Shown piece after piece: positions 339 through 9,533 of a stretch of DNA of 9,823 nt. The notes under the pieces are model-generated. The model saw nothing but the letters and a program-made list of their open reading frames with translations, did no database searches and had not been told where the DNA came from. This stretch comes from Chloroflexia bacterium (GTDB lineage: Bacteria > Chloroflexota > Chloroflexia > Thermomicrobiales > JALYUS01), in assembly GCA_025924435.1 (NCBI GenBank), contig JAICIL010000159.1, forward strand, positions 1 to 9,823. The letters run 5' to 3'. Made by a program: the position numbers and the translations under genes. The first letter of the stretch is position 1. Each line of letters opens with the position of its first letter.

Positions 339-611
339 TCAATGACCGGTCGCGACGATGACGACGCCGGCGGCAGCGGCCGCCAACAGCGTCAGGACGG
401 GTCCCCGGCGCAGGCCCAGCGTGAGACCGGCGGCGCCGGCCAGCACCGCGTACTGCCAGGGCCGGCTCAGCGCCAGGGCGAGCGGCACCGTCGAGCCGAG
501 GATCGCGCCGATCGCGGCCGGCGCGGCGCCGTCGAGGAAGGCGCGGACCCGGCGGTCGGCCCGCAGCCGGTCGAACCGGTGGGCGCCGAGCAGGATGAAG
601 GCGAACGCAGC
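339..611 (-). pseudogene. chrA: ChrA-type chromate transporter, C-terminal remnant
   Basis: The minus strand from about 611 to the TGA at 341-339 encodes the end of a chromate transporter (CHR family), a membrane protein that exports chromate. Visible family features are FAFILLGAHRFDRLR, then AFLDGAAPAAIGAILGSTVPLA. Both match the usual 'lGAP.F.RLR...raFLdG...aaiGAI' block, and two further hydrophobic segments end in GVVIVATGH. Only about 88-90 residues remain, while full ChrA proteins are about 380-450. Upstream of F605 the frame has no ChrA-like sequence and no start codon or ribosome binding site; the bases there belong to a different gene in another frame. So the gene is cut at its 5' side, by recombination or by a chimeric assembly. 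The identity of the C-terminus is fairly sure; the cause of the truncation is inferred. Confidence 0.62.
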
Positions 612-694
612 GTCAGCCGTCGCCGCGCGTCGCGCAGGAGGGCGGGATCGCCGGTGAGATAATCCGATATGAGTTGCGTCGGTTGCCGGGCCAT
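606..694 (-). pseudogene. Start of an unknown gene, truncated at the junction
   Basis: An ATG at 694-692 has a good ribosome binding site (CAGGAG, about 8 bases upstream). It opens MARQPTQLISDYLTGDPALL, followed by RDARRR. After about 25-30 residues the frame runs into bases that encode ChrA in another frame, so the remainder (to a stop at 467) is probably not real protein. I do not recognise the family. The gene is supported by its start context and by a complete copy of the shared response-regulator-like promoter at 752-806, 58 bases upstream. It therefore probably belonged to the same regulon as the secreted protein and the FMN-binding/RnfD operon. The exact end of authentic sequence is uncertain, between about 605 and 640. 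Confidence 0.42.
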
Positions 695-751
695 CGCGAA
701 TGCTCCTGTGTCCTGTGCCGTCGGATCGCGCATATCACGATCCTTTGCGGC

Positions 752-806
752 AGGATAGCGGTTGCATATGAGAGGAGCCGGGGCCGAAAATGAGAAAACG
801 ATGAGA
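752..806 (-). promoter_or_regulatory. Phased TCTCA-repeat promoter, copy 1
   Basis: On the minus strand, half-sites TCTCA lie at 806-802, 795-791 and 773-769, that is at offsets 0, 11 and 33. The second half-site is followed by TTTTC. A -10-like TATCCT lies at 757-752. No consensus -35 is visible 17 bases upstream of it, which suits activator-dependent transcription. It faces the truncated gene starting at 694. The 11-bp direct-repeat spacing is that of OmpR/PhoB-family response-regulator sites; binding is inferred. Confidence 0.6.
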
Positions 807-821
807 GGCGGTGCGTGTTGA

Positions 822-863
822 CGGTCAAGGGGATCATCCACATGAGGATGATCCCCTTGACCG
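822..863. terminator. Perfect 18-bp inverted repeat, likely terminator or mRNA-stabilising hairpin
   Basis: CGGTCAAGGGGATCATCC (822-839) is followed by the six bases ACATGA and its exact reverse complement (846-863). The hairpin begins 26 bases past the TAA of the secreted-protein gene (889-891) on the minus strand. It separates that gene from the next promoter, so transcription termination or 3'-end protection is likely. There is no T-run on either side, so it is not a classical intrinsic terminator. An operator or a mobile repeat unit is also possible. Confidence 0.6.
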
Positions 864-888
864 CGGAGCATTGAAGGAAGATGAGCGG

Positions 889-1761
889 TTAGAAATTCGG
901 GGCCGGGACGGGCACGACCTGCGGCCCGGTCGGCGTCACACCGGCGGCGTGCAGAAGTTCGTCGGCGATATGCGCGACGCTCTCGGCTGCCCGGACGGTC
1001 TGGCTCGCCTGATCGTACTTCCCGGCGTTGTAGAGGTCATACGCCTGCTTGTACAGCCCCTGCGCCGTCGTGACATAGAAGGAGAGATCACCCGCCGCGC
1101 TGCTGTTCGCCTTCACGGTGTTTGTCTCATTGACGATGCCCTGATAGGCCCGTGCCAGTTCATTGCTCGACCGCGCCTTCTGCTGATCGGCGGTCGGGGG
1201 CGTCGGCGGCGCGGGGCGCGCGGGGCGGTTGGCGGCGGACGGAAGACCCGTCTCGCCGATGCTGGCGACGATCAGATCGTCCGCGCTGTGCAGAGCTTCC
1301 GACGCCGCGCGGGCGTCGCCGCTCGCCTGCGTCAGGTTATTGGCGGTCAGGGCGCTCTGTGCCTGGCCTTGCAGCGCGCTCGCCTTGTCAATCAGGCTGT
1401 TCACCGTTGTCAGGTCCATCTTGCCATTGGCGAAATCGCGATCCGCCTTGGCGCTCGTGATCGCCTGCGTCAGGTTGCTAATCTCCGTCGTGACCGAGGC
1501 GGTGGTCGGCGTCCGCGCTCCACCCTTCCCTGGCCCATCCGGGCCGCCCGGCCCTCGGCCTCGCATGCCGGGCTGACCCGGCATGCCACCGGGGGCTTGC
1601 GGCGCGTTGCCATTCGTGGCGGCCGGTTGGGTCGTCGTTGCAGAGCCGGTCGCCGGACCTGTGGCCGGGGTCGTGGTCGGGGTCTGCGCGAGGGCAACCC
1701 CGCCGGTGACGCCGAGACCGATCACGGTCGCGGCGATGGCGCTTTTGACAGATCGCTTCAT
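889..1761 (-). CDS. Secreted alpha-helical protein with an internal duplication, function unknown
   Basis: 290 residues, with ATG at 1761 and AAAGGAG about 9 bases upstream. A basic start and hydrophobic core (MKRSVKSAIAATVIGLGVTG) lead to an ALA-Q cleavage site near residue 25, so the protein is exported. Residues 26-88 are a Thr/Pro/Gly/Ala-rich, probably disordered linker. Two helical units follow (about 90-170 and 195-275) around a Pro-rich hinge (178-190). Residues 124-164 and 229-270 align with each other: both show A-x-x-L-x-x-Q-A, then QAS-x-x-x-RAA and finally H-x-AD-(D/E)-L, spaced as in TPR-like helix pairs. No catalytic motif or cysteine is visible. It has its own copy of the phased promoter (1830-1884), shared with the FMN-binding/RnfD operon just upstream, so a role in the same envelope response is inferred. 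I do not recognise a named family. Confidence 0.86.
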   Translation of the reverse strand: MKRSVKSAIAATVIGLGVTGGVALAQTPTTTPATGPATGSATTTQPAATNGNAPQAPGGMPGQPGMRGRGPGGPDGPGKGGARTPTTASVTTEISNLTQAITSAKADRDFANGKMDLTTVNSLIDKASALQGQAQSALTANNLTQASGDARAASEALHSADDLIVASIGETGLPSAANRPARPAPPTPPTADQQKARSSNELARAYQGIVNETNTVKANSSAAGDLSFYVTTAQGLYKQAYDLYNAGKYDQASQTVRAAESVAHIADELLHAAGVTPTGPQVVPVPAPNF

Positions 1762-1829
1762 GGTCGTGCTCTCCTTTGCGGGGTTCGCTCCCGCCGTATC
1801 GTCTGCCGGACCATTTCCGGCACATCTCC

Positions 1830-1884
1830 ACGATAGGGCGGGCGTCTGAGAGAACGGGGCGGTGAAAATGAGAAGATGGTGAGA
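1830..1884 (-). promoter_or_regulatory. Phased TCTCA-repeat promoter, copy 2
   Basis: Minus-strand TCTCA half-sites lie at 1884-1880, 1873-1869 and 1851-1847, with the -10-like TATCGT at 1835-1830. Spacing is identical to copies 1 and 3 (0, 11 and 33, then 11 bases to the -10). It lies 68 bases upstream of the secreted-protein start at 1761 and downstream of the RnfD-like stop at 1915, giving this gene its own promoter. Confidence 0.62.
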
Positions 1885-1914
1885 CCGGAGCGGCGTATCG
1901 CAGGGTTCCGGCGA

Positions 1915-2877
1915 TCAGCGGCGCAGCGATCCGGCATGCTCCAAGGTCAAGGCGCGCCGGTCTGTCGCGGCGATCCCTCCCTGCCGGTCGGCCCGTGCCG
2001 GAGGGAGCAGAGGAGGGCGTGTTCCCGCGCCGGGAGTGGGCTTCACGGCACGCGGACGCGCATGCGTGCGGCGCCACGCCTCCCAGCCATTGCCGATCAG
2101 CAACCCGGCTGGCAGGAAGTAAAGCGCGCCGAGCGTCAGGAAGATCGCGGCGCACGCCACCGCCACCATGACGCCGAACAGCACCTGATCGCGGTAGCGT
2201 GCCGGTGAGGTCGGTGGGTCGGTGAGCATGAAGAAGGCGAAAAAGAGCGCCGCGTTGATGTCCGGCGCGCGGAAGATCTCCGCGGCGTGCCCGGCGTCGC
2301 CAATGAGCGCCGCGACGGTGAAGAGCGCGAGGTAGGAACCGAGGAACGCGAGGACCATCGGCAGTTTGTTCACGCGGTCCGCGATGAAGATCCCGGTGGC
2401 GATCAGGATGAGCGTGAACGGCGCGGGCACATTCGATAGCGCGCCCCACCAACTCTGCTGGTTCGCCGCCAAGAGAAAATAGCCGACGACGAGGGCGAGC
2501 GCGGCGGGATTGAAGATATGCCTGCCGCGCGCCCGGAGAAGGTACTTGGAGTTAACCGCGAGCATCGCCGTGGCGGCGACGATGTGGAACGGTTCCGTGG
2601 GCGCGACGATCAGCGCGACGATCAGACCGGAGAGGAGCGCCCCGCTCGGGAAGAACCAGGCGCTTCGGATGATCCGGCCGAGGATGACATCGAGGAGGGC
2701 GGCGGCCAGCGCCGCGCCGACGGCTTCGGCCACGGCGGCATGCAGGCCCTCATGCGTCGCCGCGAGGGCGGCGAGCAGTGGCAGGACAAGGAGCAGCAAT
2801 CCCTTCGGTGTGCGGAAGAACCGCCGTGCCATCTGAAATCCCGGTGCGATGCGCGGCGCGCGCGTGAGTGCGGTCAT
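1915..2877 (-). CDS. RnfD/NqrB-family membrane protein
   Basis: 320 residues, with AAAGGAT 8 bases before the ATG at 2877. Around nine hydrophobic segments occupy residues 25-265. Family signatures are FPSGALLSGLIVALIVAP (76-93), KYLLRARGRHIFNPAALALV (111-130, the 'FNPAA' motif) and FFMLTDPPTSP (215-225, the 'TDP.TSP' motif). RnfD and NqrB are integral membrane subunits of ion-pumping Rnf/Nqr complexes and can carry a covalent flavin. I see no SGAT-type flavin attachment site here, so this member probably differs. Residues 267-320 are a soluble Arg/Pro-rich tail. The gene starts 39 bases after the FMN-binding gene and is presumably cotranscribed with it. No RnfA, B, C, E or G gene is present, so this is a stand-alone RnfD-like protein that may pass electrons across the membrane to the flavoprotein. 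Family is fairly sure, role is inferred. Confidence 0.85.
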   Translation of the reverse strand: MTALTRAPRIAPGFQMARRFFRTPKGLLLLVLPLLAALAATHEGLHAAVAEAVGAALAAALLDVILGRIIRSAWFFPSGALLSGLIVALIVAPTEPFHIVAATAMLAVNSKYLLRARGRHIFNPAALALVVGYFLLAANQQSWWGALSNVPAPFTLILIATGIFIADRVNKLPMVLAFLGSYLALFTVAALIGDAGHAAEIFRAPDINAALFFAFFMLTDPPTSPARYRDQVLFGVMVAVACAAIFLTLGALYFLPAGLLIGNGWEAWRRTHARPRAVKPTPGAGTRPPLLPPARADRQGGIAATDRRALTLEHAGSLRR

Positions 2878-2916
2878 TGACGGTTATCCTTTCATCCCTT
2901 CCATCGTCTCTCACGC

Positions 2917-3630
2917 TCAGGCCTTCGCTTGCCCGAGCGCGTTCTTGATCGCTCCCTGAAACGCTTGGGAGCTATCCGTTGCGCCGGAGACGAAGTCCAC
3001 CGTCGCGCTCTGTCGCGTCACGACCTGCCCCGGTAGGGTGGCAATGTCCGAGCAGGGGTAGCGGGTGCCGCACTGCGTGATATTCGCGGAGACGATCTTC
3101 CCGCCCTGAACTACGACGGACGCCGTGATGCTGCCATGGCGGCTCGTCCCCGTGCCGGTGTAGGTGCCGTCCTTGTAGGCCGCTGTCGTCGCGGCAGTTG
3201 CCGTGGCGGGGGCTTTGGTGGCAGGCAGCGGGGCAGTCGTCGCGGTGGACGGAGCGGTCGTCGGGAGGGATGCGGCGCCGGTCGCGGTCGCGCTCGGCGC
3301 AATCGTCGTCGCACTTGGCGCTATGGCAGTCGCGCCCGGCGCAACGGCACTCGCGGATGGTGTGAGCAACGGCGATTGGTAGGCGGCGGTCGCGATCATC
3401 GTCGCCGGGCTGTCGGCATTCAGATACGCCGCCGCCGATTGCGTGCGGGCGTACCCGAGGCCATAGACCGAGATGATCGCCGCCGAACCGAGCGCGACAA
3501 TGCCGTTCGCCATCTTCTTATTCTTCCCACCGCCGCTCTTCGCTTTCGCCGCACCGGGAACCGGCGCATCCGGCCCCGGTCGCTGCCGCGACGGTGGTGC
3601 AATCGGTCTTCGTTCATCGTTATCTGTCAT
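2917..3630 (-). CDS. Membrane-anchored FMN-binding domain protein (flavinylation target)
   Basis: 237 residues from the ATG at 3630. This start is preferred over the ATG at 3645 because AAGGAAGG lies just between them, correctly placed for the second. Residues 1-40 are cytoplasmic, Pro/Lys-rich. A membrane segment spans 41-60, then comes a Thr/Ala/Pro linker with a repeated IAPSAT heptad (about 92-150). The FMN-binding domain (153-236) starts DGTYTGTGTSRHGSITASVV, continues QGGKIVSANI and ends VDFVSGATDSSQAFQGAI. D212 and SGAT (215-218) form the D-x-x-SGA-T site where ApbE-type transferases attach FMN to threonine. Two cysteines (C187, C193 in QCGTRYPC) suggest a disulfide or redox pair, as I recall from related proteins. 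It is the first gene of an operon with the RnfD-like gene and carries the phased promoter 3729-3783. It probably acts as an extracytoplasmic one-electron carrier; partners are unknown. Confidence 0.9.
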   Translation of the reverse strand: MTDNDERRPIAPPSRQRPGPDAPVPGAAKAKSGGGKNKKMANGIVALGSAAIISVYGLGYARTQSAAAYLNADSPATMIATAAYQSPLLTPSASAVAPGATAIAPSATTIAPSATATGAASLPTTAPSTATTAPLPATKAPATATAATTAAYKDGTYTGTGTSRHGSITASVVVQGGKIVSANITQCGTRYPCSDIATLPGQVVTRQSATVDFVSGATDSSQAFQGAIKNALGQAKA

Positions 3631-3728
3631 CTGACCTTCCTTCATGAAATGATGCGCCTGCCTGTGGCTCTCGGGGGTGAGTGGCTCCGTCTGGTTTTCC
3701 GTTCACCGGGCGACCCCGGCATAGCATC

Positions 3729-3783
3729 ACGATACGGTGCGCACCTTAGAGGAGAGGTGGGTGAAAATGAGAAAATGGTGAGA
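3729..3783 (-). promoter_or_regulatory. Phased TCTCA-repeat promoter, copy 3
   Basis: Minus-strand half-sites are TCTCA at 3783-3779 and 3772-3768 and TCTAA at 3750-3746. The -10-like TATCGT is at 3734-3729, at the same spacing as copies 1 and 2. It lies about 98 bases upstream of the FMN-binding gene start and drives the FMN-binding/RnfD operon. The bases flanking the first half-site (GCCTCTCA) also match copy 1. Confidence 0.62.
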
Positions 3784-3808
3784 GGCGTGCGGGCCGGCAA
3801 TGCGGAGA

Positions 3809-3834
3809 GTGGCCCGGCAGCAATGCCGGGCCAC
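3809..3834 (-). terminator. GC-rich hairpin after htrA, likely terminator
   Basis: GTGGCCCGGCA (3809-3819) pairs perfectly with TGCCGGGCCAC (3824-3834) around a four-base loop. It starts 24 bases beyond the htrA stop (3859-3861) on the minus strand and just before promoter copy 3. There is no T-run after the stem, so it may be a Rho-assisted terminator or a 3'-end stabiliser. Its distance from the stop is nearly the same as for the hairpin at 822-863. Confidence 0.6.
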
Positions 3835-3858
3835 CGGGAGGAGGGAAGAGGTACGCAA

Positions 3859-4998
3859 TTACGGCGTAGTGCTCGTGTTGCTGCTCGTTGGGTACTCCGC
3901 GAGGGTCGCGGTGAGCGTCTGCGTCTGGCCGTTCCGATCCACGGTGAGCGTCACCGTGTCGCCCGGCTTGAGCGTCACGAGGATACTGCCGAGCGTCGTG
4001 CTGCCATTGAGGGTCGTGCCGTTGACGGCGGTGATGACGTCACCCGCCTGCAAGCCCGCCTTCTCCGCTGGGGTACCCGCTTCGACCTTGCTGATCGCCG
4101 CGCCCTTCGCTGTGTTGAGCGAGTCAACCTGCACGCCGAGGAACGCCTTTGTGCTGACGACCGCGCCGTTGCCCTTGCTCATCAGCGTCTGGGCCGCCTG
4201 CTTCGCGGTATTGATCGGAATGGCGAAGTTCAGTCCCTGATCGCCCTGCGACGCCAGGCCGAGGGTATTGAGGCCGATCACCTGCCCCTGCGCGTTGACG
4301 AGCGGCCCGCCGCTGTTCCCGGGGTTAATCGCCGCGTCCGTCTGGATCAGGCCGGAATAGGTGTCAATCTGCCGGTCAACGCCGGAGACGACGCCCGCTG
4401 TAACGGTGTTCGCGAGGGTCTCAGGGCTGCCAATCGCGACGACGGGCTGACCGAGCCGGACGGTGTTGGAGTCGCCGAGGGTAGCAACGGCCGGCGCTTT
4501 GCTGGGGTCAATCTTCACGACCGCAATATCCTGCGACGGATCGCGACCGACCAGCGTCGCGCTGATTTCGGTGCCGTCGGCGAGTTTGACGCTCAGGGAG
4601 GAGGCGCCGTCCACGACGTGGTTATTGGTGAGGATGTCACCCTTATTGTCGAAGATCACCCCGCTACCGAGGCCGGTCGGCACCGGCGCGGCGCTGCTGT
4701 TGCCGGAACCGGACGCGTTCCCGCCCGGATTCGCTGCGCCACCACCCGGAAAGCCGGGGAGGAGGCCGCGTGCGGTGCGGCGCACGGGCGCGGCGGCCTG
4801 ATTATTGATCACCGTGACGACCGCCGGATCCACCTGCGCCGCGATCTGTTCGGTATTCATCGCGGCACCTGATGGCGTCGCGGGCGCCGCGGCGGCGGAT
4901 GGCCCATGGCCGACCGAAATGTTGACCGTATGGGTGAGCGTGAGGGTAAGGATGAGGGCGAGAACGACCATCCATCCAAATAATCGTTTGACTTGCAT
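3859..4998 (-). CDS. HtrA/DegP-type serine protease with one PDZ domain
   Basis: 379 residues from the ATG at 4998, which has AAGGAG about 10 bases upstream; the frame is open to 5154 but that extension has no ribosome binding site and would bury the signal sequence. Residues 4-28 are a hydrophobic signal anchor, so the protease domain lies outside the cytoplasm. The linker 70-107 is Gly/Asn/Pro-rich. The trypsin-like domain (about 108-275) has a complete triad: H127 in ILTNNHVVDGA, D157 in QDIAVVKID, S229 in NPGNSGGPLV. One PDZ domain (about 286-365) carries the LGVQV and GLQAGDVITAVNG motifs. This is the usual layout of membrane-anchored DegS/PepD-like proteases that degrade or cleave misfolded envelope proteins. 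It stands alone; a degenerate copy of the phased repeat (5083-5109) lies upstream. Function is secure at family level, substrates are unknown. Confidence 0.95.
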   Translation of the reverse strand: MQVKRLFGWMVVLALILTLTLTHTVNISVGHGPSAAAAPATPSGAAMNTEQIAAQVDPAVVTVINNQAAAPVRRTARGLLPGFPGGGAANPGGNASGSGNSSAAPVPTGLGSGVIFDNKGDILTNNHVVDGASSLSVKLADGTEISATLVGRDPSQDIAVVKIDPSKAPAVATLGDSNTVRLGQPVVAIGSPETLANTVTAGVVSGVDRQIDTYSGLIQTDAAINPGNSGGPLVNAQGQVIGLNTLGLASQGDQGLNFAIPINTAKQAAQTLMSKGNGAVVSTKAFLGVQVDSLNTAKGAAISKVEAGTPAEKAGLQAGDVITAVNGTTLNGSTTLGSILVTLKPGDTVTLTVDRNGQTQTLTATLAEYPTSSNTSTTP

Positions 4999-5067
4999 CG
5001 TGTTGGCACTCCTTCTTATGCTTCTGACGGCGTAGATGCACCGCTCTTGAAATGAGTATGGTTCATA

Positions 5068-5109
5068 AAGATAAGCGCGGACTGAGGAGTTGCTGAAACC
5101 GCGATGAGT
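5068..5109 (-). promoter_or_regulatory. Degenerate phased-repeat promoter upstream of htrA
   Basis: On the minus strand ACTCA (5109-5105), TTTCA (5098-5094) and CCTCA (5087-5083) are spaced exactly 11 bases apart. A TATCTT at 5073-5068 could be the -10. The half-sites are weaker matches to TCTCA, the third sits at offset 22 rather than 33, and the gap to the -10 is 9 rather than 11 bases. Membership in the same regulon is therefore only suggested. Confidence 0.32.
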
Positions 5110-5146
5110 GAATTCAGGGTGCAGCATGTGGGCGTCATCGCCGAAT

Positions 5147-5175
5147 TTCCGCATGTCGGGCGCGCGTGCTATCGT
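5147..5175 (+). promoter_or_regulatory. Possible promoter of the cupin / beta-propeller unit
   Basis: TTCCGC (5147-5152) and TATCGT (5170-5175) are 17 bases apart. The -10 is the same hexamer seen in the phased promoters, and the cupin start lies 24 bases further on. The -35 is a poor match, so this is a tentative call. Confidence 0.35.
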
Positions 5176-5198
5176 ACGGCGGACGGGAGGAGGGGGAG

Positions 5199-5552
5199 AT
5201 GAACTATTTTCGCATCTATGCCGACGCGGACGGCGAAAGCCACTTCGCGGATGTCGCGGTCGCCTTGCATGGGCACCCCGGCGGCTCGGAGTATTCGGAT
5301 GTCCACCCGGCCACCGGGGTGATCTTCCGCCGCAGCCCGGCCGATCAGTTCCTTGACTGGCACCCCGCGCCGCGCCGCCAGTTCGTGGTCACGCTCTCCG
5401 GTGAGGCGGAAGTGGAAGCGAGCGATGGCGAGGTGCGCCAGATTGGGCCGGGTACGGTCATGCTGGCTGAGGACCTCACGGGGAAAGGCCACATCACCCG
5501 CGGTGTCGGCAGCGCCGAACGCCTCTCCCTCTTTATTCCCGTGCCCGATTGA
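5199..5552 (+). CDS. Small single-domain cupin protein
   Basis: 117 residues from the ATG at 5199, which directly follows the strong purine-rich site GGGAGGAGGGGGAG; an earlier in-frame ATG at 5166 lacks such a site. After MNYFRIYADADGESHF comes a single cupin beta-barrel: DWHPAPRRQFVVTLSGEAEV (53-72), DGEVRQIGPGTVMLAEDLTG (76-95), then KGHITR (96-101). H55 and H98 are in places where cupins hold a metal, but the full His-His-Glu-His set is not evident, so metal binding is uncertain. Soluble, no signal peptide. Such proteins are common and mostly uncharacterised; substrate or ligand unknown. It is 25 bases upstream of the beta-propeller gene on the same strand, so cotranscription is likely although the two proteins act in different compartments. 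Confidence 0.85.
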   Translation: MNYFRIYADADGESHFADVAVALHGHPGGSEYSDVHPATGVIFRRSPADQFLDWHPAPRRQFVVTLSGEAEVEASDGEVRQIGPGTVMLAEDLTGKGHITRGVGSAERLSLFIPVPD

Positions 5553-5577
5553 GCCGGGCGCAATGAGGAGCTCTATC

Positions 5578-7257
5578 GTGCGAGCACGCGGGCAGCGGCA
5601 ACGGCGATTCGTCCGGGTGGCGCTCTGCGCGCTCATATTCGCTCTCATGCCGCAGGCGCTCCCGCTGCCTGCGCGCGCTGACTCCGTCTCAGCGAACGCG
5701 CCGGTGAACTTCGCTGACCCCGCCTTCCGCGCCCTCTGGCGGCGCACGGACGACCTCGCGCAGGGGCGACGCTCCTATCTCTGGGGGCCGATTGACCGGC
5801 AGACATACGTCATCGCGCGCGAGCCGTATGCGGAAGCGCCGGGGGGATCACGGCTGGTCGAATACTTCGACAAGACGCGCATGGAGCGGACGGACCCGAC
5901 CGCGAGCCGTGCCGCGCCCGGCTTCGTCACGAATGGCCTCCTCGCGACCGAGATGATCACCGGCCGCCTCCAACTCGGCGACAAGACCTTCCAGACCTTT
6001 TCGCCTGCGACCGTCACCATCGCCGGGGATGCGAGCGACCCGGACGGCCCGACCTACGCCACCTTCACGCCGCTGATGGGTGCGCTGCCCCTCGCCGCGA
6101 ACGCACCGGTCACGCAGACGGTGGACCGCAAAGGCACCGTCAGCGGCGGCGGGCCGGGCGGCGTGACGGCGGGCGAACTGGTGCCGGAGACCAACCACCG
6201 CACCGCCTCAGTCTTCCACGATTTCATCTTCGCCACCGGCCCGATCGTGATCGGGGAGCAGACTGCCCAGGGGGCGCCCGCCAATGGCCCGCTATTCGGC
6301 AACGGCTATGCGGGCGGCGTCGGTTTCCCGATCACCGAGGCGTATTGGACGAAGGTGCGCGTCGGCGGCACGCAGAAGCAGGTGCTCGTGCAGGCATTTG
6401 AGCGACGCGTCCTGACCTACACGCCTGACAACCCGGACGGATTCAAGGTTGAGGCGGGCAATGTCGGCCTCCAGTATCTGCACTGGCGCTACGGTGATGC
6501 CCCGCCGCCCGCGCCGAGCCAACGGATCGCCTTCACCGCGAAAGCAGGCAGCAACCCCGCCGCGCTCGTCGTTTCGGACGCGGACGGCAAGAACCGCGCG
6601 ACGCTCGCCAGCCCATCGAGCGACGCGCGCGCCCCGTCGTGGTCGCCGGACGGCACGCACCTCGTCTACGCGGCGGGCGGCAAACTCTTCATCGTCGGCG
6701 CGGACGGCACGAATGCCACCGCCGTCACCGATGGCCCGAACGACGACCTCCCCGCATGGTCGCCGGACGGCACGCGCATCGCCTTCGTGCGCGGGCACGA
6801 TCTCGCCCTCTTGTCCGTCCCGAATGGCGGCGTGACGACGCTCTTCGCGGGCGTGCCGGGTGCCAATGCGGTCGCATGGTCGCCGGACGGCGCCCACGTT
6901 GCGTTCGAACGCGGCACGAATATCGGGACGCTCGACGCGGATGGCTTCAACCTCCAACTGATCCTCGTCGGCACGAACGGCACCGCTTTCCGCGCGCCCT
7001 CCTGGACCCCGGACGGCACGCGCATCATCGCCACGCGCGAGGCGGGCGGCACGCGCACCATCATCGTTACCACGGCGGACGGCAAAGAGCAGCGCGACCT
7101 GACGGCCGGTTCCAGCGGCGCGATCTCGGCGGATGGCCTCCGCGTCCTCACCCTCTCCCCTGCCGGTCGCCTGATCGTGACGGACTTTCAGGGGCAGAAT
7201 CCCCGCCCCCTCTCCTCCGCCAGCGAAACCGCCGCCTTTCCTGCCTGGTCACCATGA
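5578..7257 (+). CDS. Secreted Chloroflexota-type protein with WD40/TolB-like beta-propeller repeats
   Basis: 559 residues from the GTG at 5578, chosen because AGGAG (5566-5570) lies 7 bases before it. The ATG at 5563 overlaps that site and has no site of its own, but remains possible. Residues 1-34 are a signal peptide (RQRRFVRVALCALIFALM, cleavage near PARA-DS). Residues 42-306 are a module frequent in Chloroflexota secreted proteins: NFADPAFRALWRRTD, YLWGP, GGSRLVEYFDKTRMERTDP, FVTNGLLATEMITGR, VPETNHRTASVFHDF, FPITEAYWTKVRVGGTQKQV, FERRVLTYTPDNPDGF, GNVGLQYLHWRYGD. Residues 315-559 hold PD40-like blades: APSWSPDGTHLVYA (352), LPAWSPDGTRIAFV (391), AVAWSPDGAHVAFE (431), APSWTPDGTRIIAT (473), AISADGLRVLTL (515) and a final AWSP. 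The propeller suggests binding to protein or polysaccharide; no catalytic site is visible. It converges on the methyltransferase gene. Confidence 0.93.
   Translation: MRARGQRQRRFVRVALCALIFALMPQALPLPARADSVSANAPVNFADPAFRALWRRTDDLAQGRRSYLWGPIDRQTYVIAREPYAEAPGGSRLVEYFDKTRMERTDPTASRAAPGFVTNGLLATEMITGRLQLGDKTFQTFSPATVTIAGDASDPDGPTYATFTPLMGALPLAANAPVTQTVDRKGTVSGGGPGGVTAGELVPETNHRTASVFHDFIFATGPIVIGEQTAQGAPANGPLFGNGYAGGVGFPITEAYWTKVRVGGTQKQVLVQAFERRVLTYTPDNPDGFKVEAGNVGLQYLHWRYGDAPPPAPSQRIAFTAKAGSNPAALVVSDADGKNRATLASPSSDARAPSWSPDGTHLVYAAGGKLFIVGADGTNATAVTDGPNDDLPAWSPDGTRIAFVRGHDLALLSVPNGGVTTLFAGVPGANAVAWSPDGAHVAFERGTNIGTLDADGFNLQLILVGTNGTAFRAPSWTPDGTRIIATREAGGTRTIIVTTADGKEQRDLTAGSSGAISADGLRVLTLSPAGRLIVTDFQGQNPRPLSSASETAAFPAWSP
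6640..7021 (+). repeat. Repeated WSPDG codons within the propeller gene
   Basis: The 19-base string TGGTCGCCGGACGGCACGC occurs at 6640-6658 and 6757-6775. A close copy starts at 6877 and a weaker one at 7003. Spacing is 117, 120 and 126 bases, about 40 codons, which is one propeller blade. The near-identical codons point to duplication of blades or gene conversion. Confidence 0.7.
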
Positions 7258-7258
7258 A

Positions 7259-7338
7259 AGTGGTCAGTAGCCAGTCGTCAGAATGGATTTGATCCCTCTG
7301 ATTACTGACTACTGGCTACTGACCACTGACGACTGGCG
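7259..7338. repeat. Opposed heptamer tandem repeats forming a long hairpin between convergent genes
   Basis: The right part (7304-7338) is five tandem heptamers of pattern ACTGRCN. The left part (7259-7281) is the same repeat in the opposite orientation. AGTGGTCAGTAGCCAGT (7259-7275) is the exact complement of 7311-7327, and after one mismatch a further GTCAG/CTGAC pair (7277-7281, 7305-7309) extends the stem to 22 of 23 positions. It starts 2 bases after the propeller stop and overlaps the end of the methyltransferase gene, so it may terminate both transcripts. Short heptamer repeats of this kind are known as dispersed elements in some bacterial genomes. Confidence 0.75.
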
Positions 7339-8066
7339 ACGAGCATCAGTTCGGGTTCATCGAGGCGGAGAGGGCGGCGGTCCCAGTGACCGGAGGTGCC
7401 GCCCCAGATATGCGCGACGGCGAAGCCCGTATCGTGGCAGAGGGCGATCAGTTCCGGCGGCAACCAGCGGCGCTCCTTGAGACGCAGGCGTTCGATGCCC
7501 CCCGACGTGTCCGCTTCGTCGGCATAGATTTCTTCGAGTGTCAGCAAATCGAACCGGCCGGGCGCGAGGTCCGCGTCGGTCAACTCGCGGAGGCGGGCGA
7601 AGGCGTTGAGCGTCGTCAGAATGAGCGGCGCCCCGGGTTTCAGGGCGGCATTGAGCGCATGGAGGACGGCGCGGTCGTGGTCGGCGGGGTCATCATCCAG
7701 ATTGAGGATACCGAACGCGCCGCCGCAGAGGCTGAGTGCGGCATCGAACCGTTCGGGCGTCGCGAAGCGTGTCGCGTCCGCCTCGATCCAGGAGACGGTA
7801 ACGCCCGCGCGATCAGCCGCTTTGCGCGCCTCCGCGAGCATGCCGGCGGCAATGTCCACGCCGGTGACCCGGTAGCCCCGGCAAGCCAGTTCCACGGCGT
7901 GCCGCCCCGTGCCACAGCCCATGTCGAGGATGTGGCTACCCGGCGGCAGGCCGCACTCCGCGACGATAAAGTCCGCTTCCGCCCTGGTATTGCGTGTGAA
8001 ATCCTTCTCCGCATAATGGGTGGCGGTTTCGGAGAAGAGTTCCTCCGCCTGATTCGTCGCTGCCAT
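7302..8066 (-). CDS. Class I SAM-dependent methyltransferase
   Basis: 254 residues from the ATG at 8066, with GGAGGG 8 bases upstream; the frame is open to 8324 but without a better start. Soluble. SAM-binding Rossmann fold: HILDMGCGTGRHAVEL (45-60, motif I), VTGVDIAAGMLAEARK (67-82, acidic residue D71 for the ribose), WIEADATRF (93-101), FDAALSLCGGAFGIL (107-121, motif IV area) and LKPGAPLILTTLN (142-154). The second half (160-240) has no motif that names the substrate, so it could act on a small molecule or a protein. The last residues, QWSVASSQ, are encoded by the heptamer repeat at 7304-7338, including the stop codon, so the original C-terminus was altered or extended. Neighbours are convergent (propeller) and divergent (eRF1-like); no operon. 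Confidence 0.9.
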   Translation of the reverse strand: MAATNQAEELFSETATHYAEKDFTRNTRAEADFIVAECGLPPGSHILDMGCGTGRHAVELACRGYRVTGVDIAAGMLAEARKAADRAGVTVSWIEADATRFATPERFDAALSLCGGAFGILNLDDDPADHDRAVLHALNAALKPGAPLILTTLNAFARLRELTDADLAPGRFDLLTLEEIYADEADTSGGIERLRLKERRWLPPELIALCHDTGFAVAHIWGGTSGHWDRRPLRLDEPELMLVASRQWSVASSQ

Positions 8067-8138
8067 CGTGCTCGCCCTCCATATACTTCGTGACGCTATC
8101 CCCGACGACGCTACCCACCGCGTATCACGATCCGTGCA

Positions 8139-8168
8139 ACGACGCGCGACGACGCGCGACGACGCGCA
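8139..8168. repeat. Three 10-bp tandem repeats in the divergent promoter region
   Basis: ACGACGCGCG is present at 8139-8148 and 8149-8158, with ACGACGCGCA at 8159-8168. The copies lie between the divergent methyltransferase (start 8066) and eRF1-like (start 8232) genes. The 10-bp step puts them on one face of the helix, so they could bind a regulator, but simple slippage in GC-rich DNA also explains them. Confidence 0.65.
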
Positions 8169-8231
8169 TGGCACCGCACTTGCCACCATCAGTACGATGC
8201 AATCCGCAACGGTAATCCAGGAGGGAGACCG

Positions 8232-9533
8232 ATGGTATCCGAACACTTCGAGCAAATGACCGATACCCGACCGGACGTGCCACGGACGCCGGCCCTGCGC
8301 GACGATCTGATTGACCTCGCGCAACGCGCCGCCGATCCGGAGCGGCCATACCTGACGGTGTCACTCGATTATCGTCCCGACGGCACGCAGCCGAACCGCC
8401 GCCCCGGTCTTCTCTGGCTCAAGGAACGCGAGCAGGAGCTGGCGGAGACGCTCGGGCCGCGCGGCGCGGCCTTCGACGCGCTCACCGAGGGGATGCAACG
8501 CCTGCATGCCATCCTTGATGACCTGGACGTCGAGCCGCCACAAGGTGTCATCTTCGTCGCGCAGCCCGCCACGGCCGACGTTCGGACGATCCCGCTCGCC
8601 GTGCCGGTCGGAAACAGCGCGAATGTCGCGCCCCGCCCGATGCTCGCGCCCCTCGCGCGTCTCGTCCACGCCTATCCGCCCTTCGCCCTCCTGCTCGCGG
8701 ACTCCCGGCAGGCATTCCTGCACACGTTCATCCTCGGCGCGCTGGAGCGCGAAGTGACGATGGAGAGCGCGTACACGCACCTGACGGCGGGGGCGGTCGG
8801 CAATAAAATGATCGAGCGCAAAGCGCTCAACGCCGTCGAGCAGCAGCTCGAGAACTTCGCCAAGGCCATCGCCGAGGAGACGCGCCGCGTGCTCGATGAG
8901 GATAGTGTGCCGCACCTGATTATCGCGGCGGACGATCAACTGACCGCGACACTGCGCGACCACTTCCCGAAGGAACTCGACGCGAAAGTGATTGGCACCG
9001 TCGCAGCGGACATCCGCGCCACACCCGCCGATCTCCTCGCGCTCGCACTACCCGTCGTCGAGGCGGCGCGGCGAGCGCGGGAGGAGGACATCGTGCAGCG
9101 GATGACGACCGCCGCACTTTCGCGCGGCGGATTGGGTGTCTTCGGCGTCGCGGAGACGCTCGCCGCGTTGCAGGCGGGGCAGGTGCAGGACCTCGTCCTC
9201 GCGGACGACTTCCACGCGCCCGGCTGGGTGGACGACACACTGGAGCTGGTCGGAGCGGGCGCACCGCCACTCGAACATCCGGCGGGCGGCGACCGCGCCT
9301 CTCTCCGGGCGATTGAACTCACTGACGAACTGGTCCATCGTACCCTGCTGACGGGCGGCGCCGTCGCCTTTATCACGATGCGAAATCAGGAAGTGCCCGA
9401 GGACGCGAACGAAGCCGAGGAGACGGGCGGCGAGCGGCAAGGCGCGCCGCGGACGCTCCAGGAGCATGGCGGCGTCGGCGCGATTCTCCGCTTCCGGTTG
9501 GACGAGAATCAGGCGGTGCCGACGCTCCAATGA
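8232..9533 (+). CDS. Bacterial eRF1/Vms1-like protein (baeRF type)
   Basis: 433 residues from the ATG at 8232, with AGGAGG 7 bases upstream. It has the layout of bacterial relatives of the archaeo-eukaryotic release factor eRF1 and of Vms1. An N-terminal domain (20-125: YLTVSLDYRPDG, GVIFVAQ, RTIPLAVPV) leads to the core with PFALLLADSRQAFLHTFILG (150-169), VPHLIIAADDQLTATLRDHF (226-245) and VIGTVAADIRATPADLLALALPVV (253-276). A helical part LGVFGVAETLAALQAGQVQDLVLADDF (301-327) and a C-terminal L7Ae-like domain (362-424, ending GGVGAILRF) follow. Where eRF1-like peptide-release proteins carry a GGQ/GxxQ loop, this one has TAGAVGNKMIERKALN (185-200) without GxxQ, so peptidyl-tRNA hydrolysis by that loop is not supported. 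A role at ribosomes is inferred from the family only. No signal peptide or membrane segment. Confidence 0.82.
   Translation: MVSEHFEQMTDTRPDVPRTPALRDDLIDLAQRAADPERPYLTVSLDYRPDGTQPNRRPGLLWLKEREQELAETLGPRGAAFDALTEGMQRLHAILDDLDVEPPQGVIFVAQPATADVRTIPLAVPVGNSANVAPRPMLAPLARLVHAYPPFALLLADSRQAFLHTFILGALEREVTMESAYTHLTAGAVGNKMIERKALNAVEQQLENFAKAIAEETRRVLDEDSVPHLIIAADDQLTATLRDHFPKELDAKVIGTVAADIRATPADLLALALPVVEAARRAREEDIVQRMTTAALSRGGLGVFGVAETLAALQAGQVQDLVLADDFHAPGWVDDTLELVGAGAPPLEHPAGGDRASLRAIELTDELVHRTLLTGGAVAFITMRNQEVPEDANEAEETGGERQGAPRTLQEHGGVGAILRFRLDENQAVPTLQ

Follow-up and report, generated by a model that had tools for sequence, protein, structure and literature searches.

What is the function of three nearly alike elements that stand on the minus strand, between positions 752 and 3783, of a 9,823-nucleotide stretch of Chloroflexia DNA (contig JAICIL010000159.1; "the window" hereafter means that whole stretch), each of them upstream of a gene? 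A preliminary description of the window took them for promoters of a regulon around a flavin mononucleotide (FMN)-binding/RnfD module. We propose that the three elements are probably promoters through which a response regulator of the OmpR/PhoB type switches one small regulon, and a putative cell-surface regulon of known general type is a credible reading of the locus.

All three elements (Table 1) match TCTMA-N6-TCTCATTTTC-N12-TCTMA-N11-TATCST without a mismatch. In each of the three, the half-sites lie at offsets 0, 11 and 33, TTTTC follows the second half-site, and TATCST stands 11 bases past the third; in these respects, and in coordinates and strand, the preliminary description was accurate. 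Its word "identical" was too strong, since the third half-site of site 3 reads TCTAA, site 1 has TATCCT, and the counterpart of site 3 in G001, the nearest genome in the comparison, begins with GCTCA. Each site lies on the strand of the gene that it precedes: site 1 is 57 bases upstream of the ATG at 694 (gene 1), site 2 is 68 bases upstream of the ATG at 1761 (a secreted helical protein), and site 3 is 98 bases upstream of the ATG at 3630 (the FMN-binding protein). With up to three mismatches allowed, the 55-base pattern has three matches in the window, whereas 200 dinucleotide shuffles averaged 0.00; as the pattern was derived from these same copies, the count says no more than that chance does not explain their likeness.

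Direct repeats about 11 bp apart recall the operators of OmpR/PhoB-family regulators, which bind head-to-tail repeats 11 bp apart (PMC3798270). In Escherichia coli, the operator of ArcA, a member of this family, at trxC has two repeats 11 bp apart and a third 22 bp from the second, within a 48-bp footprint (PMC3798270). This layout equals that of the 0/11/33 elements, and the direct-repeat reading given in the preliminary description thus has a footprinted precedent, although the half-site sequence of ArcA is different. MtrA of Streptomyces venezuelae has a half-site TCTCAAG at -34 of mtrA, in its own promoter (PMC13189361). A TCTCA half-site near -35 is common to that promoter and the window elements; the MtrA consensus is, however, loose, with only T1 and C4 fixed (PMC13189361). 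MtrA is also the best solved-structure match of the response regulator that adjoins such a site in another genome, G050, described below.

In promoters of the PhoB type, an 11-base spacing from half-site to -10 is expected where the regulator replaces the -35 element. Because the layout equals that at trxC, and because the spacing to the -10-like TATCST fits such a replacement, we infer that one phosphorylated OmpR-type regulator would activate all three promoters. Two dimers of the regulator would sit in tandem on about 44 bases, one at offsets 0 and 11 and the other at offsets 22 and 33, the block at offset 22 being presumably a degenerate half-site. The promoter-proximal half-site would then substitute for the -35 element, with TATCST, 11 bases on, serving as the -10 in a class II-like activation. 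ArcA is described as mostly a repressor (PMC3798270), whereas the spacing to the -10 would suggest activation here. The output of the regulon would comprise an extracytoplasmic flavin/electron-transfer pair (the FMN-binding and RnfD-like proteins), the secreted helical protein, the product of gene 1 and possibly an HtrA-type protease. Such an output would fit a response to cell-surface stress or to redox state, and the presumed signal is in this sense a guess from gene content.

The element also occurs beyond the window locus. Its full architecture, with three mismatches allowed, has two matches beyond G001 among 158 genomes of the class (G050 and G493; reversed control 0), and with two positions freed it appears in 13 further genomes, one match each, among 400 genomes of the phylum (control 1). 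The core TCTCANCRTNTTCTCAT matches nine times in the 158 genomes, twice in G001 (control 0), and TCTCA-N6-TCTCAT matches 12 times, against three in the control, in six genomes, four of which were chosen because a 21-base core had matched there. The pooled results of four pattern scans, with neighbouring matches in G025:C409 counted once, give 27 distinct sites outside C221, the G001 contig that corresponds to the window; six matches of the 21-base core (G043, G025:C224, G003:C2, G033, G014 and G004) are excluded from this set, and the surrounding genes are listed for G043 only. Called genes cover 88% of the loci concerned, and 22 of the 27 sites lie outside them, a figure that comes from a crude gene caller and that the tendency of AT-rich motifs toward intergenic gaps would favour. 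A response regulator or kinase gene stands within 1.5 kb of six of the 27 sites as against one of 134 control windows, which come from RnfD loci in other genomes and are unmatched by genome.

One instructive case is G050, which belongs to another family of the same order. On its contig C69, the genes for a response regulator and a kinase (6793-8388) are followed by the site, at 8462, and then by genes for a membrane protein and a homologue of the window's helical protein; the site thus stands between the kinase gene and the operon with this homologue, and it has the same offsets of 0, 11 and 33. A winged-helix response regulator likewise adjoins the site in G025, G048 and G077, and none does so in the window or in C221. 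The sites of G025:C409 and G048:C685, which have the two-repeat core only, lie just past the end of the regulator gene. In G077:C72, a weaker site lies between an HtrA gene and a regulator/kinase pair and is oriented toward HtrA.

The limits just given on the intergenic fraction and on the control windows weigh against a single two-component regulon, and so do a number of other observations. Across 61 genomes of the order, the 21-base core at three mismatches has more background than the full architecture or the TCTCANCRTNTTCTCAT core, with 13 matches (three in G001) against three in the control. No regulator or kinase gene lies within 1.5 kb of 21 of the 27 pooled sites; of the six sites that have one, that of G475 adjoins a lone receiver without a DNA-binding domain. 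The 27 sites are not fully independent, as G155 and G255 hold one site in sister species, and the G305 site resembles a simple repeat. The site-adjacent regulator of G025 belongs to a different branch and has a different recognition helix. In G001, no further copy of the 21-base core is found at up to three mismatches, and a weight-matrix scan finds no site near the best candidate regulator. Nor is the element conserved at the genes where the preliminary description would have it recur: TCT[CA]A-N6-TCT[CA]A occurs in none of 33 GTDB RnfD loci (L021-L053, two of which, L034 and L036, start within the FMN-binding gene), and among five helical-protein contexts examined outside G001 the element is present in G050 alone, being missing in G053:C235, G470, G012 and G018.

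Some of these observations would be accounted for if the element were the target of a regulator outside the two-component class, or of several regulators sharing a TCTCAT-type half-site. The many sites without a regulator gene nearby, the diversity of the genes downstream of the sites and the different branches of the site-adjacent regulators are in line with such an explanation, and several regulators may indeed use such sites. Repeats that run head to tail at about 11 bases, whether or not a 22-base step is included, are nonetheless typical of OmpR/PhoB-type proteins (PMC3798270, PMC3353115), and we regard this alternative as unlikely.

A second alternative is that one promoter region was copied within the cluster, so that the likeness of the elements reflects descent and not a common regulator. 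Copy number bears on this point, and it was counted in G001 (4.4 Mb, 92% complete) as the nearest genome compared, in place of the window's own strain. At up to three mismatches, the 21-base core occurs there at three places, all in one 3-kb locus of C221 (reversed control 1); the weaker core TCTCA-N6-TCTCAT gives one extra match, within a called gene on C118. A weight matrix built from the three window sites and the G050 site, which themselves score 75-81, gives 75-76 for the G001 copies, and in seven G001 stretches (88,370 positions) the best score beyond these three copies, among the matches listed, is -0.2, with the 99.99th percentile at -4.5. Since the only G001 copies are those in C221, what the motif reveals of the regulon is one locus, and no genome-wide regulon is seen; the wider regulon that the preliminary description proposed to look for in the source genome is not supported by the G001 count.

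The confinement of every G001 copy to 3 kb is what duplication would predict, and sites 2 and 3, 76% identical across 68 bases, flank included, partly share ancestry. Duplication may therefore have contributed to the likeness that the preliminary description credited to selection. Over the three pairs, identity is 74/78 in motif columns against 46/87 in other core columns (Fisher test), a contrast that is partly circular, as the motif columns were chosen for being conserved. Against copying within the cluster stand the same architecture in G050, where a kinase gene adjoins it and an operon containing a homologous gene follows, and the recurrence of a TCTCAYCGTTTTCTCAT-like core elsewhere, at sites that have unrelated neighbours and mostly fall outside called genes. 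Duplication as the whole explanation is quite unlikely. It is highly improbable that the elements are due to chance or are repeats with no regulatory role: the half-sites are short, AT-rich motifs drift toward intergenic gaps, one of the 27 outside sites (G305) looks repetitive and the 21-base core has three reversed matches to 13 in the genomes of the order, but no shuffle of 200 reproduced the pattern, all three copies are oriented toward a downstream gene whose start codon lies 57-98 bases away, and the reversed controls were 0, 1 and 0 for the full architecture, the looser pattern and the TCTCANCRTNTTCTCAT core.

Among the sites elsewhere, some precede a sigma-70-like gene (G407, L162), a PAP2-like gene (G493, L083) and the gene of a small secreted protein (G368, L164), all named by eye. 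At L139:2667-2722 (G053:C253), three copies of TCTCATGTT have the exact offsets 0, 11 and 33; this array overlaps a gene start beside the gene of a likely extracytoplasmic function (ECF) sigma factor and is oriented oppositely.

If the elements are operators of an OmpR/PhoB-type regulator, which protein would bind them? A search of G001 with the G050 regulator gives 41 matches, of which 13 extend over the full length, C-terminal DNA-binding domain included, and one is a partial match spanning that domain. Encoded on contig C13, the best match is 49% identical, and the adjoining kinase reads in two frames. The recognition-helix stretch of the C13 regulator, NVLEVYVRALR, is similar to NVVDVYVRYLR, which is common to the site-adjacent regulators of G050 and G048. 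In a tree of the regulators, those of G050 and G470 group with good support, while the position of the C13 protein is not settled. The latter does not reach the cut-off of any of the 25 NCBIfam models listed out of 104 matched, including the MtrA equivalog NF040689 (215.2 bits, cut-off 300). Given the similar helix, the unsettled tree position and the lack of a site before its gene, the C13 protein is a weak candidate, the best in G001, and the cognate regulator is a guess. Two-component genes beside the site, of the sort that the preliminary description anticipated, are seen in some relatives, at six of 27 sites, and there is no site near the candidate in G001.

The link with the secreted helical protein, which the preliminary description had also drawn, is strengthened by its relatives. 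No Pfam family matches this protein at E <= 0.01; it belongs to a family of at least 77 proteins at E <= 0.001, itself included, none with a Pfam assignment, and most of the members listed end in VPAPNF or a near variant. It shares 34% identity with the G050 homologue over 246 columns (E 1e-28), and the alignment scores 98.6 bits against 20.8 bits for the best of 60 shuffles. Relatives adjoin a response regulator/kinase pair in G050, G053 and G470. The genes for regulator, kinase and helical protein follow in a row in G470, where the family match is weak (E 2e-6) and the VPAPNF end is missing; in G053:C235, the helical-protein gene is divergent from the pair; and in G012 and G018 the regulator is on the same contig, nearly 5 kb off. 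The detailed reading covers these five contexts, weak matches at L148-L150 and L152 (G104, G131, G337 and G276) having been left out of it.

The Pfam family of the CpxP/Spy type is marked by the LTXXQ motif, and the window protein, with no Pfam match, is no detectable CpxP/Spy relative. It is tempting to propose that it would nevertheless inhibit its own sensor kinase in the manner of CpxP, for which the gene neighbourhood in relatives speaks. In the CpxRA-CpxP-DegP system, a two-component pair controls a periplasmic accessory protein and the protease DegP (PMC4985592), and the set of regulator, helical protein and HtrA is an analogy to it.

A bolder and rather doubtful proposal is that of an undescribed OmpR-type envelope system of Chloroflexota, in which a distinct operator (TCTCAYCGTTT/TCTCAT repeats at 0/11/33) would control the VPAPNF-ending helical family, the helical protein would feed back on the kinase as CpxP does while being unrelated to it, and the extracytoplasmic flavin electron-transfer pair would, at this locus, be commanded as well. 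If this were true, envelope quality control would be joined to a redox output in this lineage. The type of system is well known; in a narrow search of open-licence literature, no account of an operator like this one in Chloroflexota came up. The association of the motif with a regulator pair, with a secreted helical family and, in one relative, with HtrA offers a testable entry to envelope stress control in Chloroflexota, and a first guess at function for a family that has no Pfam model.

The membership of the HtrA gene in the regulon is suggestive at best: a site-like stretch before it, at 5055-5109, has a weight-matrix score of -0.3. For the guess of an envelope stress response, made in the preliminary description, the adjoining HtrA gene and the weaker G077 site provide indirect support. 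The MprA box of M. tuberculosis may contain TCTCAG-like repeats, a point for which literature searches brought no confirmation and which carries no weight here. Two-component control of HtrA-type protease genes is described for CutRS in Streptomyces (PMC12802291) and MprAB in Corynebacterium (PMC12113857), a likeness to the setting in the window. The regulon motifs given there, TAWATAAA for CutR (PMC12802291) and TKTTAAGAAM for MprA of C. glutamicum (PMC12113857), were compared by eye and do not fit the three sites.

The FMN-binding protein scores above the Pfam cut-off (Table 1) and has the SGAT motif, a flavin attachment site, within VDFVSGATDSS. Its partner scores 36.5 bits against NCBIfam TIGR01946 (rnfD), below the cut-off of 207, and belongs to the wider Pfam family NQR2_RnfD_RnfE. 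The two genes are paired in all 33 RnfD loci, which come from several phyla; many of these loci have a gap of about 900 bases between them, which the window pair lacks. In two loci of relatives, L019 and L022, a script found no open reading frame of at least 120 residues within the gap. A relative, P0004, 71% identical to the RnfD-like protein of the window, is fused to a PF00072 receiver that appears degenerate by eye. The window protein (C terminus at 1915-1960) ends in TDRRALTLEHAG and a few more residues, like the onset of that receiver, as if the domain had been lost. The P0004 fusion was rejected as a regulator, as it has no DNA-binding domain by Pfam and its receiver, by eye, is without the conserved lysine.

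Table 1. Features of the locus in window coordinates
Feature	Position	Strand	Remarks
Operator/promoter 3 (putative)	3729..3783	-	TCTCA, TCTCATTTTC, TCTAA, presumed -10 TATCGT; precedes the FMN-binding/RnfD-like operon
Operator/promoter 2 (putative)	1830..1884	-	TCTCA, TCTCATTTTC, TCTCA, TATCGT; before the helical-protein gene
Operator/promoter 1 (putative)	752..806	-	TCTCA, TCTCATTTTC, TCTCA, TATCCT; before gene 1
HtrA-type serine protease with PDZ domain	3859..4998	-	PF13365 and PF13180; upstream neighbour, same strand
FMN-binding (RnfG/NqrC-type) protein	2917..3630	-	SGATDSS close to the C-terminal end; PF04205 at 30.5 bits (cut-off 22) for the translation from 3645
RnfD/NqrB-like membrane protein	1915..2877	-	PF03116, 49.8 bits, cut-off 27.7
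Secreted helical protein	889..1761	-	No Pfam model; C-terminal end VPAPNF
Gene 1, first 29 codons	608..694	-	Start at 694, cut at 607/608

Transcription on the minus strand runs from HtrA through the FMN-binding and RnfD-like genes and the helical-protein gene to gene 1. For the FMN-binding gene, 3630, which has a good ribosome site by eye, is a more probable start than 3645. Between the helical-protein gene and site 1, at 822-863, there is a near-perfect inverted repeat (CGGTCAAGGGGATCATCC ... GGATGATCCCCTTGACCG) with no clear T run, so a separate transcript from site 1 is plausible.

The window matches C221 at 99.7% from 608 to 6289. Positions 1-607 have no match in that contig, and G+C content falls from 74% in 1-640 to 67% in the remainder; the left end of the window is foreign to the locus. 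Gene 1, which the preliminary description had called a truncated unknown gene, is indeed incomplete here, but the truncation is that of the junction at 607/608, in the assembly or in the chromosome, because the C221 match stops there and the C221 gene is uncut (L005:69-494; 141 residues). A protein search for its family returned nine proteins. Among the close relatives of the RnfD-like and helical proteins, several are labelled Thermomicrobiales or Chloroflexota in the protein records.

Elsewhere in the window, positions 1-607 encode part of a family 2 glycosyltransferase, an imperfect inverted repeat of the GTCAGTAGCCAGT type, noted by eye, lies between two convergent genes at 7258-7335, and 8232-9533 encodes a member of the bacterial release-factor-like baeRF family 10.

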